Shown here: positions 1-34,667 of the stretch, piece after piece | Layout of the letters: each line of letters opens with the position of its first letter | Position numbering within the stretch: the first letter of the stretch is position 1 | From: Actinomycetota bacterium | GTDB lineage: Bacteria > Actinomycetota > Geothermincolia > Geothermincolales > RBG-13-55-18 | Direction: 5' to 3' | Assembly (NCBI GenBank): GCA_030019255.1 | Contig: JASEFK010000014.1 | Location: forward strand, 365 to 35,076 | DNA: 34,712 bases | Made by a program: the position numbers and the translations under genes | Notes under the pieces: model-generated | Seen by the model: only the letters and a program-made list of their open reading frames with translations | Told to the model about the DNA's origin: nothing | Database searches by the model: none

Positions 1-273
1 CGAGGCGTCCAGCTGGGGAAGGAGGGCGTTTATGAAGGCCACCGTGGCCGGGTCGTTGGCGATGCCGGCGATGGCCGCGGTATCCAGGTTGGGGAGCAGG
101 GTCCCCGTGATCCAGGGCTTAAGGTCTGCGATCAGGGTGTTCACCGTATCCGGGGTGATCCCGGAGAGGAGGTCGGCCACCCAGGCCCCGTTGCCGTTGA
201 CGATCCCCGCCAGGGCCGAGGCGTCCAGCTGGGGAAGGAGGGCGTTTATGAAGGCCACCGTGGCCGGGTCGTT
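1..273. repeat. 57-bp perfect direct repeat inside the solenoid gene
   Basis: Bases 1-57 and 217-273 are identical. The offset of 216 bp equals 72 codons, so the copies are in frame and span three repeat units. Other units of the gene have diverged far more at DNA level, so this pair looks like a recent duplication or gene-conversion event. Confidence 0.9.
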
Positions 274-1506
274 CATGATCCCGGCGATGACCCCCGTGTC
301 AAGTTCGGAGATGAGGCTTACCGCCCAGGCACCATTTCCGTTTATCACGTCAGCTATGGTGGAGGGCGACAGGGCTCCCACAAAATCGGTCATGAAGGCG
401 GCGTTGTTGTCGAGGATATGTCCCAGCTGGGCACCGTCCAGTTGTCCGATCAGCGCATCCAGCCAGGCGTAATTGTCGGAAACCGCACTGGCCACCATAC
501 CCGGGTCCAGGTACCCCAGAAGAGCGCTCACGAAGCCGCCGTTGGCGTTGATGGAGCCGGCGATGGAAGCGGGGTTAAGGTAACCGATCAAGCGGGTGAC
601 GAAGGATTGGTTGTTGATGATGGAAGCAATGAAGTCGGGCTCCAGGAGCGCCACGACGTCGTTCATCAGCTGCTCGTTGTTGTTCAGGGCATCGGCTATG
701 ACCTCGGGATCCAGGTATCCCAGGAGCTGCACCAGGAAGGGGCCATTGGCGTTGACCGCACCGGCCAGCACCCTGGGGTTCAGCAAAGACATCACCGAGG
801 TCAGGAACCTGCCGTTGGCATTCACCACCATGGCCGCTACCCGGGGGTCTAGCAGGCCCACCAGCTCGATGGCCAGGTTAGGATTCTCGTTGATTGCTCT
901 CGCCAAAACCTCCGCATCCAGTAGCCCCGCCACCTGGGTTATGAAGGTGGCGTTGCTGTTGATGACCTGGGCGATTACCCGGGGGTCAAGGGCACCCACC
1001 ACCCGGATGGCGAACTCCTGGTTGTTGTTGATCACATAGGCAACGGAAAAGGGATTCAGGTATTGAGCCACTTCAACCAGGAAAGAGTAGTTGTTGTTCA
1101 CCACATCGGCGATCACCTGGGGGTCGAGGTAGGGGATAACCTGGCTCACGAACTCGCTGTTCTGGTTCACGATCTCCGCCGCCACCTGGGGATCGAGGGA
1201 GGCGACCAAGCTGTTTATGAACTCGGGGTTTTCGTTGACCGCGGCGGCCAGTATATCCGCCTGCAGGAGGGGGAGAAGTTCGGCGACCAGGTCGGGGTTC
1301 TCATTGATGGCCCTTGCGACTTCCTTGGGGTCAAGGGTGTTGAACATGCCCACCAAGTTATTCCTGGAATTGAATATCTTGCCCATCAGCGGGCCGAAGG
1401 GACTTCGTGAGGGTAAAGCCATCAACCCCCCCATTGCCAGCAGGGCGACCAACGCAACGATGACCGCCAAATTGATCACTTTCTGAAGCGTCCTGTTGAT
1501 GAGCAT
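1..1506 (-). CDS. Exported 23-residue-repeat solenoid protein (C-terminus beyond left edge)
   Basis: The reading frame is open on the minus strand from ATG 1506-1504 to base 1, giving 502 residues with no stop, so the protein is partial. A purine-rich stretch (GGGGGTTGG) lies just upstream of the ATG; an in-frame GTG at 1524 is an alternative start. Residues about 11-30 form one hydrophobic segment (signal peptide or N-terminal anchor). From residue 58 the rest is 19 complete tandem units plus the start of a twentieth. Sixteen units are alike: fifteen of 23 residues and one of 22. The last ones vary from 23 to 25. Each unit has the pattern L-D-P-x-V-x-A, then N-x-N, then an aromatic or Leu and a second hydrophobic run. 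This suggests a short helix, an Asn-containing turn and a second helix, which is an alpha-solenoid. I do not recognise the family. The spacing is loosely reminiscent of the helical repeats of the MgtE N-domain, but that is only a resemblance. A surface or cell-envelope role is inferred from the N-terminus. Confidence 0.85.
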   Translation of the reverse strand, partial: MLINRTLQKVINLAVIVALVALLAMGGLMALPSRSPFGPLMGKIFNSRNNLVGMFNTLDPKEVARAINENPDLVAELLPLLQADILAAAVNENPEFINSLVASLDPQVAAEIVNQNSEFVSQVIPYLDPQVIADVVNNNYSFLVEVAQYLNPFSVAYVINNNQEFAIRVVGALDPRVIAQVINSNATFITQVAGLLDAEVLARAINENPNLAIELVGLLDPRVAAMVVNANGRFLTSVMSLLNPRVLAGAVNANGPFLVQLLGYLDPEVIADALNNNEQLMNDVVALLEPDFIASIINNQSFVTRLIGYLNPASIAGSINANGGFVSALLGYLDPGMVASAVSDNYAWLDALIGQLDGAQLGHILDNNAAFMTDFVGALSPSTIADVINGNGAWAVSLISELDTGVIAGIMNDPATVAFINALLPQLDASALAGIVNGNGAWVADLLSGITPDTVNTLIADLKPWITGTLLPNLDTAAIAGIANDPATVAFINALLPQLDAS

Positions 1507-2150
1507 GTCCCCAACCCCCTTCACTTCACCGTTTCTGGCTCCGCGTCCTCAGGTTTAAGTCATCCCGAACCTCCGGGCACACGACAAAAGGCGAGAAAAG
1601 CCCGGTTTCATAAGCGAGAACGCGTGAAAGAACGCATAAATGAGGTGGTATTCAGATCGCAGAAGGAAAGTGTAGGCAGGATGACAACGGCGACTAGCAC
1701 TTGAAGTGCGCGAAGAACATAAAAGGTTTTCTCCAGGCCCCCCGCCCGGACACACAAAGGAAAAATCGATCAACCCACGCACCCCTTACCTAGCCTCCAG
1801 GTCTTTGCCTCCCCGGGGCGTTCAGCCGGAGCCCCAGTTCCCTTACCTCGATCATCCCCCCCTTGTATATGAAAAGCGAATTTGTCACATGTTACCCATT
1901 GATAAATATCGGTGCTCTATCTTTCAACATTTAGCAGCCGTATACCTTTCCCAAAAAATATTTACAGAAACGTAACACTCCCGTAACGCTTGCTTGACAA
2001 CCCCGAGCCCATCCCAAAACATCGGCTCCCCTTAAACGACCCCGCGCCCGTAAACAGATCGAGGCCCGGTTGCCCGGTCAGCCTGCACCTCATCAGCCTG
2101 CGGCTCCTCGGAAGTGAAGAGGCCTGCCGCGCGTCCACCAACGGATGCCG
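1507..2150. other. Long intergenic stretch, no supported gene
   Basis: About 640 bases separate the repeat-protein gene from the lipoprotein terminator. A 75-codon minus-strand ORF at 1555-1782 has Cys/Ser/Arg-rich composition and no convincing ribosome site, so I do not call it. Bases 1860-1990 are clearly AT-richer than their surroundings and would be a sensible place for the promoter of the minus-strand repeat-protein gene, but I see no convincing -35/-10 pair. Confidence 0.5.
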
Positions 2151-28042: not shown

Positions 28043-28351
28043 AGCTTCGTGCCGGATCCGCGGAGCAGCTCCCGCCACGCAATCTCTCCCGCACCTTTCC
28101 TCGAACGCGCGGGCTTCCGGCGTTGGAAGAGCAAAGGACGACTTTCTCTTCTTTACCGGAGGGCAGCAGCGATTCGCGCACTGGCGGGGAGGCAACCCCA
28201 TCCCTTCGAGAACGGGAAAGAGCAAGTCAATCGGGAGAGGTAGGGGCCAGAATCCCCAATGGTGGTGTATGAACCACCGCCCGGATGACAAAGGAGCGAC
28301 TACCGTGCCATCCTTTTCCTTGAAAGCAAAACAAGCGGAGAAAGGATAATT

Positions 28352-28483
28352 ATGATTGTCGAAAAGGACACCGTGAACCTTCTGGAGTGGCTGCGCAAGC
28401 AATCGGAGGAAGCGGGCGGAAACGCCCTACTTCCAGAATTTTTATATAATATAGAAAATATTTTTATAATGGGCGCGAGGTAA
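28352..28483 (+). CDS. Possible 43-residue protein upstream of selD
   Basis: ATG 28352 follows GAAAGGA and the frame ends at TAA 28481. The peptide (starting MIVEKDTVNLLEWLRKQ) looks helical and soluble with an aromatic, AT-rich C-terminal end (E-F-L-Y-N-I-E-N-I-F-I-M). The AT-rich end overlaps two TATAAT boxes, so the ORF may be accidental or a remnant of a longer gene. No family is recognised. Confidence 0.3.
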   Translation: MIVEKDTVNLLEWLRKQSEEAGGNALLPEFLYNIENIFIMGAR

Positions 28484-28683
28484 GTGTAGAATAACGCCTT
28501 GACGAAACGGTGGTCCCCGCGGATTTCGTGCTCACGGTGACCGCCCGACTCGGTGAAGATGCCGGTTGCGCGAAGGACAGAAAAGCCGGACTTACCGGTC
28601 ATCCTCTCGTCCGGTAATGCCCGCCCAGCAGGACGGAAATGCTGACGACCTCCTTACGGCAATGCCGGGGGACGGCCGGGAAG

Positions 28684-28728
28684 CCCGATCGGGTAACTAA
28701 CGATGGAACGGTCATCCAACCGATCGGG
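28684..28728 (+). promoter_or_regulatory. Long inverted repeat in the selD 5' leader
   Basis: CCCGATCGG (28684-28692) pairs perfectly with CCGATCGGG (28720-28728) around 27 bases, inside which GATG (28702-28705) can pair with CATC. It ends 12 bases before the selD ribosome site (AAAGGA, 28743-28748). A further patch at 28586-28617 can fold as CCGGAC/GTCCGG or as TTACCGG/CCGGTAA, but not both. A riboregulatory function is only a possibility. Confidence 0.4.
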
Positions 28729-28758
28729 AGGACGAGGACTGGAAAGGATATAGTGAAG

Positions 28759-29802
28759 ATGGGCGAAAGAAAGGTCAGGCTCACGCTGCTCTCCAGCAAA
28801 TCGGGGTGAGCGGCCAAGGTGGGTCCGGAGGACCTCAGGAAGGTGCTGCGACTGCTGCCCCCAGGAGACCTGCGCGAGGAGATCCTGGTGGGGCTGGACA
28901 CGCCCGATGACGCCGCCGTTTACCGCCTGGACCCGGAACGGGCCCTGGTCCATACCCTGGATTTTTTCACCCCCATCGTGGATGATCCCTACTGGTTCGG
29001 CCGTATAGCCGCAGCCAACGCCTTGAGCGATATATACGCCATGGGGGGGACTCCCCTCTCGGCCATGAACATCGTCTGCTTCCCCTGCTCTCTGGGGATG
29101 GAGCTCCTTGCGGAGATCCTGCGCGGCGGCCTGGACGCGGTACGCGAGGCGGGCGCCGTCATCCTGGGCGGGCACACCGTGGACGACGAGGAACCCAAGT
29201 ACGGGCTGGCGGTCACCGGCATGGTCCACCCCGAGCGCATCCTGACCAGCCGGGGAGCCCGCGCCGGGGACGTGCTGGTGCTTACCAAGCCCCTGGGGAC
29301 GGGCATTCTCTCCACGGCCCTCAAGGCGGACTTCATATCCGAAGTGGAGATGGAGGCGGCCGTGAAAGGGATGGCCGCTCTCAACCGCGAGGCCTCCCTT
29401 GCCGCGGTGGCCGCCGGGGCCCGAGCCTGCACCGACGTCACCGGTTTCGGCCTCCTGGGACACCTCGCCGAGATGCTCCCCGAAGAGGGGTTGGGCTGCG
29501 AGATATCCGCCGGCTCCATACCCGTCTACCCCGGCACCCGGGAAATGGCCGCCATGGGGATGATCCCGGCCGGCGCACACCGCAACCGTGATTTCCTGGC
29601 CGGCAGGGTGGAGTTCAACGGCAGGGTGGAAGAGGTGGACCGTGACATCCTTTATGACCCCCAGACTTCCGGGGGGTTGTTGGTGGCCCTCCCCCCGGAG
29701 GGCCTGGAGATCCTGGGAAATGAGCTGCGGGAAGGGCGGGACTGGTACCGGATGGGAGAGTTCGTCGCCGCCTCCCGCGCAGTGATCAGGGTGACGACCT
29801 GA
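28759..29802 (+). CDS. selD: Selenophosphate synthetase SelD, itself a selenoprotein (Sec17 at in-frame TGA)
   Basis: The enzyme makes selenophosphate from selenide and ATP for Sec-tRNA synthesis. Conventional reading starts at GTG 28819 and lacks the active site. Reading through TGA 28807-28809 from ATG 28759 gives 347 residues, the E. coli length, with N-terminus M-G-E-R-K-V-R-L-T-L-L-S-S-K-S-G-U-A-A-K. Arg7, Leu8, Thr9, Ser12, Gly16, Sec17 and Lys20 align without gaps with E. coli SelD, whose catalytic pair is Cys17 and Lys20. The rest is typical: D-D-A-A-V-Y, TLDFFTPIVDDPYWFGRIAA, AMGG, GGHTVDDEEPKYGLAVTG, DVTGFGLLGHL and DPQTSGGLL. AAAGGA (28743-28748) precedes the start; GTG 28753 is an alternative. 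Sec-containing SelD is known in many Sec-using organisms. The gene needs its own pathway to be read. It is followed by yedF, selA, selB and tRNA-Sec. Confidence 0.93.
28807..28836 (+). promoter_or_regulatory. Candidate bacterial SECIS element of selD
   Basis: Starting 12 bases after the TGA, GGTCC (28822-28826) pairs with GGACC (28830-28834) around loop GGA; one G-T pair (28821 with 28835) extends the stem. The loop begins 17 bases after the TGA and has G in its first two positions. Known bacterial SECIS elements have the apical loop about 16-37 bases after the UGA and a G in the first loop positions, so geometry fits. The stem is short. Confidence 0.6.
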
Positions 29803-30025: not shown

Positions 30026-30631
30026 ATGGGAGAGGTAGTGGATGCCCGGGGCATGGCCTGTCCCGCCCCCGTGGTCAAGACGCGGGAAGCATTACAGCGC
30101 GGATGCCTCCGGTTCGAGGTGCTGGTGGACAATCCCACGGCCCGGGATAACGTCACCCGCTTTGCCGTCTCCCAGGGATGCAGCGTGGAGGTCGGCGAGG
30201 AGGGAGGGGTGTTCCGCCTGGCCATAAGCAGGGAAGGCGGTGCGGAGGAGGCCGCCCTCGGAGCCGTCTGCGCGGAACACTCCCCGTCCCCCGAGGAGAA
30301 AAGGGTGGTGGTCCTCTCCGCGGACGTCATGGGCCGGGGCGAAGAGGAGCTGGGCAGGATACTCATGAAGGCCTTCCTGAACACCCTGGCGGAGAGCGAA
30401 AAGCGGCCCTGGAGGCTGGTGCTCTTCAACCGCGGCGTCCTCCTGGCGGTGGAGGGCGCGGACACCGTCCCCGCCCTCTCCGAAATGGTCTCGCGGGGCA
30501 CGGAGGTCCTGGTCTGCGGGACCTGCCTGGATTATTTCGGGGCCAAGGAGAAGGTGGCCGTGGGGACGGTGAGCAACATGTTCGAGATACTGGAAACCAT
30601 GCTGGTGGCCTCCAATTCGATAACCATCTAA
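30026..30631 (+). CDS. yedF: Selenium-metabolism protein YedF (TusA-like plus DsrE-like)
   Basis: A 201-residue protein starting at ATG 30026, four bases after AAGGAGG. Residues 1-75 are a TusA/SirA-type domain with the signature D-A-R-G-M-A-C-P-A-P-V-V-K (Cys12). The C-terminal half is a DsrE-like domain with VLVCGTCLDYFGAKEK (Cys164, Cys167) and A-V-G-T-V-S-N-M. This two-domain form is the YedF family that occurs next to selD in Sec users; it is assumed to handle selenium or sulfur, perhaps delivering selenium to SelD, but its reaction is not established. It lies between selD and selA on the same strand, with gaps of 223 and 285 bases. Confidence 0.92.
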   Translation: MGEVVDARGMACPAPVVKTREALQRGCLRFEVLVDNPTARDNVTRFAVSQGCSVEVGEEGGVFRLAISREGGAEEAALGAVCAEHSPSPEEKRVVVLSADVMGRGEEELGRILMKAFLNTLAESEKRPWRLVLFNRGVLLAVEGADTVPALSEMVSRGTEVLVCGTCLDYFGAKEKVAVGTVSNMFEILETMLVASNSITI

Positions 30632-30916: not shown

Positions 30917-32368
30917 ATGGCGGGGAAAGAGGAGGCGAAGAAGGACTACCTGCGGAGGCTGTCCTCGGTCAACGATCTCATCCAGGCCTTTTACCGCAGC
31001 CGCATAGCGGGCGACCGTTCCATCCCCCGGGAGCTGATAACCGAGGCCTCCCGCGCCGTGCTGGAGGGAGTGAGGGAAGCCATCCTTGCCGCCCGCGACG
31101 AGATGTCCCTGAACGAAATCAGCACGGACACCGAGGAGCTGGTGTCCATGGTGGAAAAGGAAGTCGAGGAACGCCTGCGGCCCAGTTTCCGTCGGGTGAT
31201 CAACGCCACCGGGGTGGTGGTGCACACCAACCTGGGCCGCTCCATCCTCCCCGCGCCGGCCATCGAGGCCCTGCAGACAGCGGCCGCCCACTACAGCAAC
31301 CTGGAATTCCGCCTGGAGGACGGATCGCGGGGCTCCCGCCAGATGCACCTGCGCAGGATACTCTGCGAGCTTACGGGGGCCGAATCGGCGCTGGTGGTGA
31401 ACAACAACGCGGCGGCGGTACTCCTGGCCCTCACCACCCACGCCAGGGACCGGGAGGTAATCGTGAGCCGCGGTCAGCTCATCGAGATAGGAGGCTCCTT
31501 CCGGCTTCCCGAGGTTATGGCCCAGAGCGGGGCCAGGCTGGTGGAGGTGGGGACCACCAACAAGACCTACCTGGAGGACTACCGGAGGGCTATCACCAGC
31601 GAAACGGCGGTAATCATGCGCGCCCATCCCAGCAACTACCGCATCCTGGGTTTCACCGCCGAGGTAGACCTCAGGGAGTTGGCTTCCCTGGCCCACGAAT
31701 ACGGGCTCATCATGCTGGACGACCTGGGGAGCGGGGTTTACATGGACCTCTCCCGCTTCGGCCTCTCCCACGAGCCGACCATCCGCGACTCCCTCCGGAA
31801 CGGGGCGGACCTGGTATGCTTCAGCGGTGACAAGCTCCTGGGAGGTCCCCAGGCGGGCATCGTCCTGGGCCGCGAGGACCTGGTGGAGGCCATGGCCAGG
31901 CACCCCCTGGCCCGGGCCCTTCGCGCGGACAAGCTCACCGTGGCCGCTCTGGAGGCTACCCTTCGCCTGTACCTGGACCCGGAGCGGGCCCTGGTGGAGA
32001 TACCCACCCTGGCCATGCTCACCGCCGACCCGAAGTCCCTGCGCAGGAGGGCCCGCCGCCTGGCCAGGCAGCTCTCGTCCGCCTGCCCCGACCTGAGGGT
32101 GGAGGTCGTGGAGGACGTCTCCCGCGCCGGCGGTGGGTCCCTTCCCATGGAGGACCTTCCCACCTGGGTGGTGGCGGTGGATTCCTCCCGCATGAAGGTG
32201 AACCGGCTGGAGGAAAACCTGCGCCGGTGCGACCCCCCGGTCATCGGGCGCATAAAGGAGGACCGGCTCCTCCTGGACGTGAGGACCCTGAGCGACGAGG
32301 AGGTCCCCCTGGTGGTGGAGGCCTTCCGCTCCGCGGCGGGGGACGAGGAAAGCCGCACGGAATCATGA
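30917..32368 (+). CDS. selA: L-seryl-tRNA(Sec) selenium transferase SelA
   Basis: A 483-residue PLP enzyme that converts seryl-tRNA-Sec to selenocysteyl-tRNA-Sec using selenophosphate. Start ATG 30917 follows AAGGG. The N-terminal domain (LSSVNDLIQAF near 15-26) and R-V-I-N-A-T-G-V-V-V-H-T-N-L-G-R-S near 92-108 are typical, as are SNLEFRLEDGSRGSR and N-N-N-A-A-A-V-L-L-A-L. Lys306 in F-S-G-D-K-L-L-G-G-P-Q-A-G is the PLP lysine. LDDLGSGVYMDLSRFG precedes it. Length is close to E. coli SelA (463). No gene for the archaeal-type SepSecS/PSTK pathway is in the window. selB follows after 69 bases. Confidence 0.96.
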   Translation: MAGKEEAKKDYLRRLSSVNDLIQAFYRSRIAGDRSIPRELITEASRAVLEGVREAILAARDEMSLNEISTDTEELVSMVEKEVEERLRPSFRRVINATGVVVHTNLGRSILPAPAIEALQTAAAHYSNLEFRLEDGSRGSRQMHLRRILCELTGAESALVVNNNAAAVLLALTTHARDREVIVSRGQLIEIGGSFRLPEVMAQSGARLVEVGTTNKTYLEDYRRAITSETAVIMRAHPSNYRILGFTAEVDLRELASLAHEYGLIMLDDLGSGVYMDLSRFGLSHEPTIRDSLRNGADLVCFSGDKLLGGPQAGIVLGREDLVEAMARHPLARALRADKLTVAALEATLRLYLDPERALVEIPTLAMLTADPKSLRRRARRLARQLSSACPDLRVEVVEDVSRAGGGSLPMEDLPTWVVAVDSSRMKVNRLEENLRRCDPPVIGRIKEDRLLLDVRTLSDEEVPLVVEAFRSAAGDEESRTES

Positions 32369-32437: not shown

Positions 32438-34384
32438 ATGAAGAACTTCATCATCGGGACCGCCGGGCACATCGATCACGGTAAAACCGAGCTGGTCAAA
32501 GCCCTGACCGGCACGGACACCGACCGGCTCAAGGAAGAGAAGGAGCGGGGCATATCCATTGAGCTGGGCTTTGCGGAACTCAGGCTACCCAACGGCATTG
32601 CCGCCGGGGTGGTTGACGTGCCCGGCCACGAGCACTTCGTGAAGAACATGCTGGCCGGGGCCACCGGTTTCGACCTGGTACTCCTGGTGGTGGCCGCCGA
32701 CGACGGAGTGATGCCCCAGACGGTGGAGCACCTGGCCATCGTGGACCTCCTTGGGGTATCCGACGGGGTAGTGGCCATCACCAAGGCGGACCTGGTAGAG
32801 GAGGACATGCTGGAGCTGGTCAAGGAGGACGTCGGCGGGACGCTGCGGGGCACCTCCCTGGAGGATGCGGAGGTGGTGGTCACCTCCAGCCGCACCGGAC
32901 AGGGCCTGGACGAGCTCCTACAGGCCCTCTCCCGGGCTGCGGAGAGGGTCCGCTCCCGCGACAGCGAGGGACCCTTCCGCCTCCCCGTGGACCGCGTCTT
33001 TACCCTGCGCGGCATAGGCACGGTGGTCACCGGGACCCTCTGGGAAGGGAGCGTGGCCGACGGGGAGGAAGCCGTGGTACAGCCCTCCGGCAAGCGCCTG
33101 AGGATACGCAACGTTCAGGTACACGGGGAGGACGTGGAAAGGGCCTACGCCGGCCAGAGGGTGGCCATGAACCTTCCCGGCATCTCCAAGGAGGAGGTGA
33201 CTCGTGGGGACGTGATAGTATCCCCGGGTTACCTGCGACCCACCCTGATGGCCGACGCCCTGCTCCATCTCCTGGAAAGCGCCCCGCAGTCCCTGAAAAA
33301 CCGCGCCCGCATCCGCTTCCACCACGGCACCAGCGAGATCATGGCCCGGGTGGTCCTTCTCGGGGGCCGCGAGGAGCTCCTACCGGGCGAGAGCCACCCG
33401 GTGCAATTGCGCCTGGAGAAACCGGCCGTGCTGCGCTACGGCGACCGCTTCATCATCCGCAGCTATTCCCCCGTCACCACCATCGGCGGCGGCCGCATCC
33501 TGGACTCCCATCCCCGCAAGCACCGCCATCACCAGGTGGAAGTGCTCGAGGAGCTCAAGGTCCGGGAGCGTGGAGAGCCTCCCGAGCTGGTGCTCCTGGC
33601 CCTGGAGGAGAGAGGCCTCCCCCTATCCGTCGCCGGGCTGGTGGAGAGGCTGGAGTTGAAGGCCCGCGTGGTGGAAGGAGCGGTGAAGGAGCTCCTGGCG
33701 CAGGGGAAGCTGGTGGAAATAGCTGGTGAAAGCGGTACGCTCTACCTGGGCCCTTCCCGGCTGGAACATCTTCTGGACACCATGGTGGGGCTGGTGGAGG
33801 AACTGCACTCCGCCAACCCCCTGAAGGCGGGAGTGGAGAAGGAGGTGCTGCGCCAGCGTCTGGGGGAGCGGCTGGCAAAAGGGAGAAATTTCCAGTTGCC
33901 CGCGGAGGATTTCCTCTCCCTGCTGCGGGCCGCCGACAAGGCGGGTCGCCTGGAGACGGAGGGGGGCAAGGTCAGGGTAGCGGGAAAGGGACGAGCGCTG
34001 GGGGAAAGGGAACGCACCCTCCTGGGAGAGCTGGAATCCCTGATCAAGGAGGGCGGGTTCTCCCCTCCCCTCTTCAAGGAGCTGAGTGAGAGGCTGGGGG
34101 TAGACCGCAACCGGCTCCGGGACCTCCTGAACATCCTCCTCGAGGAGGGAAGGATAGAGCAGGTGAACCCGGAATATTTCCTGGCCGCTGGAAAGCTGGC
34201 CGAGGCGGAGGAGAAGGTGGTAGCCTTCCTCTCCAAGAGCGAGAGGCTCGCCGTGGCCGACCTCCGGGACATGCTGGGCGCCAGCCGGAAGTATGCCATC
34301 CCCCTCCTCGAATACCTGGACCGGAAGAAGGTCACCCGCCGGGAGGGGGATTACCGGGTGCTCTTCCGGCCCGTGCGGGGATAA
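32438..34384 (+). CDS. selB: Selenocysteine-specific elongation factor SelB
   Basis: A 648-residue GTPase that brings Sec-tRNA to the ribosome at UGA codons followed by a SECIS hairpin. The G1 motif is G-H-I-D-H-G-K-T (10-17), G3 is D-V-P-G-H-E (60-65), and G4 is T-K-A-D (115-118), the SelB/EF-Tu-like pattern. Domains II and III follow (YGDRFIIRSYSPVTTIGGG near 330-350). From about 370 to the end are winged-helix repeats that bind the SECIS RNA; one is seen near the C-terminus (E-E-G-R-I-E-Q-V-N-P-E-Y-F). Length is normal for the family (about 610-640). It should recognise the hairpin proposed in selD. tRNA-Sec lies about 190 bases downstream. Confidence 0.96.
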   Translation: MKNFIIGTAGHIDHGKTELVKALTGTDTDRLKEEKERGISIELGFAELRLPNGIAAGVVDVPGHEHFVKNMLAGATGFDLVLLVVAADDGVMPQTVEHLAIVDLLGVSDGVVAITKADLVEEDMLELVKEDVGGTLRGTSLEDAEVVVTSSRTGQGLDELLQALSRAAERVRSRDSEGPFRLPVDRVFTLRGIGTVVTGTLWEGSVADGEEAVVQPSGKRLRIRNVQVHGEDVERAYAGQRVAMNLPGISKEEVTRGDVIVSPGYLRPTLMADALLHLLESAPQSLKNRARIRFHHGTSEIMARVVLLGGREELLPGESHPVQLRLEKPAVLRYGDRFIIRSYSPVTTIGGGRILDSHPRKHRHHQVEVLEELKVRERGEPPELVLLALEERGLPLSVAGLVERLELKARVVEGAVKELLAQGKLVEIAGESGTLYLGPSRLEHLLDTMVGLVEELHSANPLKAGVEKEVLRQRLGERLAKGRNFQLPAEDFLSLLRAADKAGRLETEGGKVRVAGKGRALGERERTLLGELESLIKEGGFSPPLFKELSERLGVDRNRLRDLLNILLEEGRIEQVNPEYFLAAGKLAEAEEKVVAFLSKSERLAVADLRDMLGASRKYAIPLLEYLDRKKVTRREGDYRVLFRPVRG

Positions 34385-34571: not shown

Positions 34572-34667
34572 GGAGATGCATCCGTCCTGGTGGGCGGCCC
34601 GGTCTTCAAAACCGGTGCGGCGTCGTAACGGGCGCCGGGTAAGTTCGATTCTTACGCATCTCCGCCA
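34572..34667 (+). tRNA. selC: tRNA-Sec (anticodon UCA)
   Basis: A 96-base tRNA with the tRNA-Sec hallmarks. The acceptor stem has 8 pairs (GGAGATGC with GCATCTCC, 34656-34663), then discriminator G and encoded CCA. The D stem has 6 pairs (CCGTCC/GGGCGG) around the 4-base loop TGGT. The anticodon stem CCGGT/ACCGG encloses CTTCAAA, giving anticodon TCA at 34606-34608. A long variable arm (G-C-G-G-C-G to C-G-C-C-G region) and T arm GTAAG/TTCGATT/CTTAC follow. A run of six T's comes after the CCA. Confidence 0.97.

Follow-up and report, generated by a model that had tools for sequence, protein, structure and literature searches.

A predicted selenocysteine-containing selenophosphate synthetase in an uncultured lineage of Candidatus Geothermincolia

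Does an in-frame TGA close to the start of a selenide, water dikinase gene (selD) end translation, or is it read as selenocysteine (Sec)? This question is raised by a stretch of 34,712 nucleotides, hereafter the window (assembly GCA_030019255.1, contig JASEFK010000014.1), which belongs to a genome of 2.93 Mb (98.8% complete). The nearest named relative appears to be Candidatus Solincola tengchongensis, which probably belongs to the same genus, its SelD being 83% identical, and which NCBI places in the Actinomycetota, Ca. Geothermincolia. A sequence-only reading of the window had proposed that Sec, at residue 17, replaces the catalytic cysteine of SelD.

The selD frame and the identity of its product

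From its ATG to the stop TGA at 29800-29802, the selD frame is interrupted by one further TGA alone (Table 1). Frame, length and the assignment of this TGA to residue 17 had been given correctly, in every detail, by the sequence-only reading. A Shine-Dalgarno-like site precedes the ATG, and similar purine-rich sites precede the ATG in three relatives (L003, L007 and L008); an alternative in-frame start, GTG 28753, is more poorly spaced from this site. It had also been anticipated that automatic calls would truncate the gene, which holds for simple ORF finding: the standard call gives a protein of 327 residues starting at GTG 28819. The NCBI pipeline copes with many known selenoprotein families. 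The corrected gene model retains 20 residues, including the active-site residue, which would otherwise be lost. Upstream, selD is separated from a flavodoxin-like gene by a spacer of 716 nt (28043-28758), with a GC content of 56% (64% for the window) and an AT-rich patch near 28440-28470. This spacer had no match in Rfam or among plasmids and is hardly conserved even within the genus, measuring 286 nt in L003 and 726 nt in L007.

Table 1. Coordinates of selD, its signals, the downstream Sec genes and other TGA-containing genes of the same genome (window positions unless a contig is given)
Feature	Position	Strand	Evidence or comment
Shine-Dalgarno-like site GGAAAGGA	28741..28748	+	10 nt 5' of ATG 28759; read from sequence
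selD, selenide water dikinase with predicted Sec17	28759..29802	+	347 aa plus TGA stop; TIGR00476, 3u0o/2yye alignments, read-through translation
TGA predicted to be read as Sec (residue 17)	28807..28809	+	in-frame; homologue column (see text)
SECIS-like apical hairpin GGGUCC-GGA-GGACCU	28821..28835	+	loop starts 17 nt after UGA
yedF, selenium-metabolism sulfurtransferase-like protein	30026..30631	+	TIGR03527 203 bits, cut-off 110
selA, L-seryl-tRNA(Sec) selenium transferase	30917..32368	+	TIGR00474 607 bits
selB, Sec-specific elongation factor, SelB winged-helix domains	32438..34384	+	TIGR00475 383 bits; PF09106, PF09107
selC, tRNA-Sec, anticodon TCA	34572..34667	+	ARAGORN; RF01852 81.8 bits
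Formate-dehydrogenase-like gene L112	G000:C9:100769-102043		TGA at UH(S/G)(P/A)T
Formate-dehydrogenase-like gene L113	G000:C9:33449-34720		TGA at UH(S/G)(P/A)T
Formate-dehydrogenase-like gene L114	G000:C14:45691-47313		TGA at UH(S/G)(P/A)T

The read-through protein scored 388.5 bits with the SelD equivalog model TIGR00476 (cut-off 125) and 337.1 with PRK00943 (cut-off 299), and its AIR synthase-type N- and C-terminal domains (PF00586 and PF02769) were both above their cut-offs. Using phmmer, residues 1-339 were aligned from Met1 to Escherichia coli SelD (PDB 3u0o), the N-terminal part being gapless as had been claimed, with the TGA codon over the catalytic Cys17 and with R7-L8-T9, S12, G16 and K20 identical. 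While both proteins are 347 residues long, the E. coli enzyme has Cys17-Gly-Cys19 where the window protein would have Sec17-Ala-Ala19. Position 17 and K20 are essential in E. coli SelD. The N-terminal loop of the window protein contains the Cys/Sec17-Lys20 pair, with the TGA at 17, and K20 is invariant among SelD homologues (103/103). The top-scoring solved relative is Aquifex aeolicus SelD (PDB 2yye and 2zau), whose loop reads SGCAAKVGPGDL, compared with SGUAAKVGPEDL in the window, and whose deposited chain has Cys in place of Sec17. Natural A. aeolicus SelD has Sec at this position, the Cys having been introduced for the structure.

Conservation of the Sec/Cys column

Of 103 non-redundant homologues from several phyla, 92 have a TGA codon at column 17 of SelD and the remaining 11 have Cys; no third state occurs. 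The query of this search carried Cys at that column and hence no bias toward TGA-bearing matches. Similarly, 35 of the 46 SelD-type matches from 59 related genomes have exactly one in-frame TGA, and TGA occupies the column in all 15 genomes searched from the window's family. The close homologues begin before the TGA and have the motif, and every Cys form compared includes the N-terminus. The sequence-only reading had named two findings which would speak against it, homologues starting after the TGA without the motif and a TGA arising from a sequencing error. As far as testable, the first is contradicted by these N-termini and the second by the recurrence of the same TGA throughout the family.

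If this TGA were a true stop, the protein would start at GTG 28819 and lack the N-terminal loop, which is the form that a plain ORF call yields. However, such a protein would lose both position 17 and K20, the sequence immediately 5' of 28819 lacks a good Shine-Dalgarno site, and none of the Cys forms compared is shortened in this way. In addition, protein-level conservation (R/K-L-T and G16) is seen in the stretch preceding the TGA. Comparison of codons 5-16 within the window's family gave 92 codon differences, 68 of them synonymous and 24 non-synonymous, which argues that this stretch evolves as coding sequence. A genuine stop is thus very improbable. An error of sequencing or assembly, or a pseudogene, could likewise be considered since the evidence consists of an assembled genome without reads. 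Such an error is nevertheless unlikely, as it would have to be repeated in every relative and the same TGA is also present in many other phyla, and the remaining frame is intact and conserved; the probability of an error or a pseudogene is, in our view, negligible.

Cys-type SelDs were observed in the window's class (L108, from genome G027) and phylum (L107, from genome G054). In a quick tree built on sparse sampling, the Cys forms fall into at least three separate groups, with L108 adjoining Sec forms from the window's class. This placement suggests that Sec and Cys may have been exchanged in SelD within the class.

Sec machinery and a SECIS-like hairpin

The genes for Sec synthesis and insertion are found directly downstream of selD, on one strand and in the order selD-yedF-selA-selB-selC. 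The order selD-yedF-selA-selB is retained in L003, L004, L006, L007 and L008, with a tRNA-Sec downstream. The genome has one selB above the cut-off. A second, Cys-type selD which might serve as a starter copy was considered and none was found in the genome, the window gene being the sole selD and the next match being distant (32% identity).

Three molybdopterin oxidoreductases of the same genome each have one in-frame TGA, located at the FdhA motif UHSPT, UHGPT or UHSAT and followed, about 18 nt later, by a hairpin whose loop contains GGUC. These formate-dehydrogenase-like proteins are predicted to be further selenoproteins of this genome. In the matches to NiFe(Se) hydrogenase and to FlpD, an in-frame stop was looked for and none was found, and no match to the selenouridine synthase model TIGR03167 was found in the genome. 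A search of the genome for GrdB gave no match, its control also matching nowhere.

These data bear on whether the UGA might specify an amino acid other than Sec, either because the codon is generally reassigned or through a suppressor tRNA. In favor of such a reading, one could cite a tRNA of the genome which resembles tRNA-Sec and has a Cys anticodon, but this anticodon, GCA, reads UGC/UGU and not UGA, and tRNA-Sec(UCA), SelA and SelB are all present. Moreover, TGA is the terminal stop in 8 of the 10 window genes checked, including selD, and is therefore not generally reassigned. Insertion of a different amino acid is accordingly extremely unlikely.

According to the bacterial SECIS model, a loop of 3-9 nt, with a G in its first two positions, is located 16-37 nt from the UGA (PMC13188914), and the hairpin of selD agrees with this description. 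In the selD genes of 23 class members, 4 of 133 conserved-residue codon sites use a single codon, and three of these four, codons 22 (GGT), 23 (CCG) and 25 (GAC), build the hairpin. The Gly22 codon is GGT in all 23 members, while about 2.4 would be expected from the same genes; the two Cys forms which have Gly22 both use GGC. Such frozen synonymous codons point to selection on the RNA, as would be expected of a SECIS element. Folding energy alone was considered as proof of a SECIS element and dropped, the hairpin being ordinary for GC-rich sequence (z of -1.1 for 44 nt) and z ranging between -1.1 and +0.4 in such sequence. The hairpin pairs are either invariant or broken, without covariation, which is neither for nor against the hairpin, and in some relatives the minimum-energy fold gives another hairpin at selD.

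Proposed mechanism, known relatives and a selC*-like tRNA

Collectively, the column, the Sec machinery, the SECIS-fitting hairpin in frozen codons, the other selenoproteins and the independent assemblies support the proposal that Sec17 replaces the catalytic Cys. The gene is almost certainly functional and would encode a Sec-containing selenophosphate synthetase, the UGA being decoded as Sec by the adjacent SelB and tRNA-Sec and steered by the hairpin which follows shortly within the coding sequence. We infer from these genomic data Sec insertion itself, the binding of SelB to the hairpin and catalysis by SelD. Sec17 most likely stands in for Cys17 as the selenium-handling residue of the mobile N-terminal loop, in agreement with the description of the family in PMC13188914, and would handle selenide during the ATP-dependent formation of selenophosphate.

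Selenophosphate would then be used by SelA to make Sec-tRNA, so that full-length SelD would need the product of its own pathway. The sequence-only reading had concluded that a gene required for Sec synthesis itself requires Sec. This view is favored by the presence of a sole selD in the genome, while the dependence need not be absolute, as Cys forms exist in nature. All Sec-SelD enzymes depend in this way on their own pathway, which should create no paradox in growing cells, because daughter cells inherit the SelD enzyme. A more speculative and rather unlikely idea is that a sole SelD needing its own product acts as a positive-feedback switch on selenium supply, Sec use being kept or lost as a heritable state. 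After a loss of selenium and SelD, such a switch may let the Sec pathway restart only slowly, a delay that leaky decoding of the UGA, or insertion of Cys there, could overcome.

Sec-containing SelD is known from bacteria, archaea and eukaryotes (PMC1794560, PMC4561486, PMC13188914), and Sec-SelD and FdhA are described as the most widespread selenoproteins of bacteria (PMC1794560). In one survey, Sec was found in 19% of prokaryotic SelD genes, always at the same position (PMC4561486), and a 2026 review gives UxxK as the Sec motif of SelD (PMC13188914). With this family (TIGR00476), the window gene shares the single Sec position, UxxK, a UGA with a downstream hairpin, and SelA/SelB/SelC; no mechanistic difference sets it apart, and what distinguishes it is limited to the taxon (Ca. 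Solincola, Ca. Geothermincolia, Actinomycetota) and the local sequence. It is an ordinary Sec-SelD, from a selenoprotein family known for decades and common among the relatives of this bacterium. No paper on selenium in Geothermincolia or Solincola was found in the literature searched, and the gene confirms Sec use in this uncultured actinobacterial lineage.

The tRNA-Sec covariance model also retrieved a selC*-like tRNA-Cys elsewhere in the genome (G000:C4:275810-275898, minus strand, corresponding to L120:1497-1589, minus strand). This tRNA scores 61.1 bits with RF01852 (gathering score 47) and combines the Cys anticodon with discriminator U73 and a tRNA-Sec-like body. An ordinary tRNA-Cys (L150) is also present in the genome, and no second selB above the cut-off was found there to accompany the selC*-like tRNA. 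As read from their sequences, similar tRNAs occur in ten related Actinomycetota genomes (L165-L172, L174 and L175); 7 of the 10 exceed the tRNA-Sec gathering score, and those of L169, L171 and L172 have an extra A in the T-stem. The tRNA of the window genome agrees with the selC* tRNA-Cys reported by Mukai and colleagues and summarized in the review PMC7609411, where the taxa named are Firmicutes, Thermodesulfobacteria, Nitrospirae and Proteobacteria, Actinomycetota not being among them. Its occurrence in this genome and its relatives is possibly more interesting than the Sec-SelD.

At the opposite end of the window, a long repetitive open frame of at least 508 residues (1-1524, minus strand) extends past the window edge and consists of degenerate repeats of the type LLxxLDPxVIAxxxNxNxxFV.
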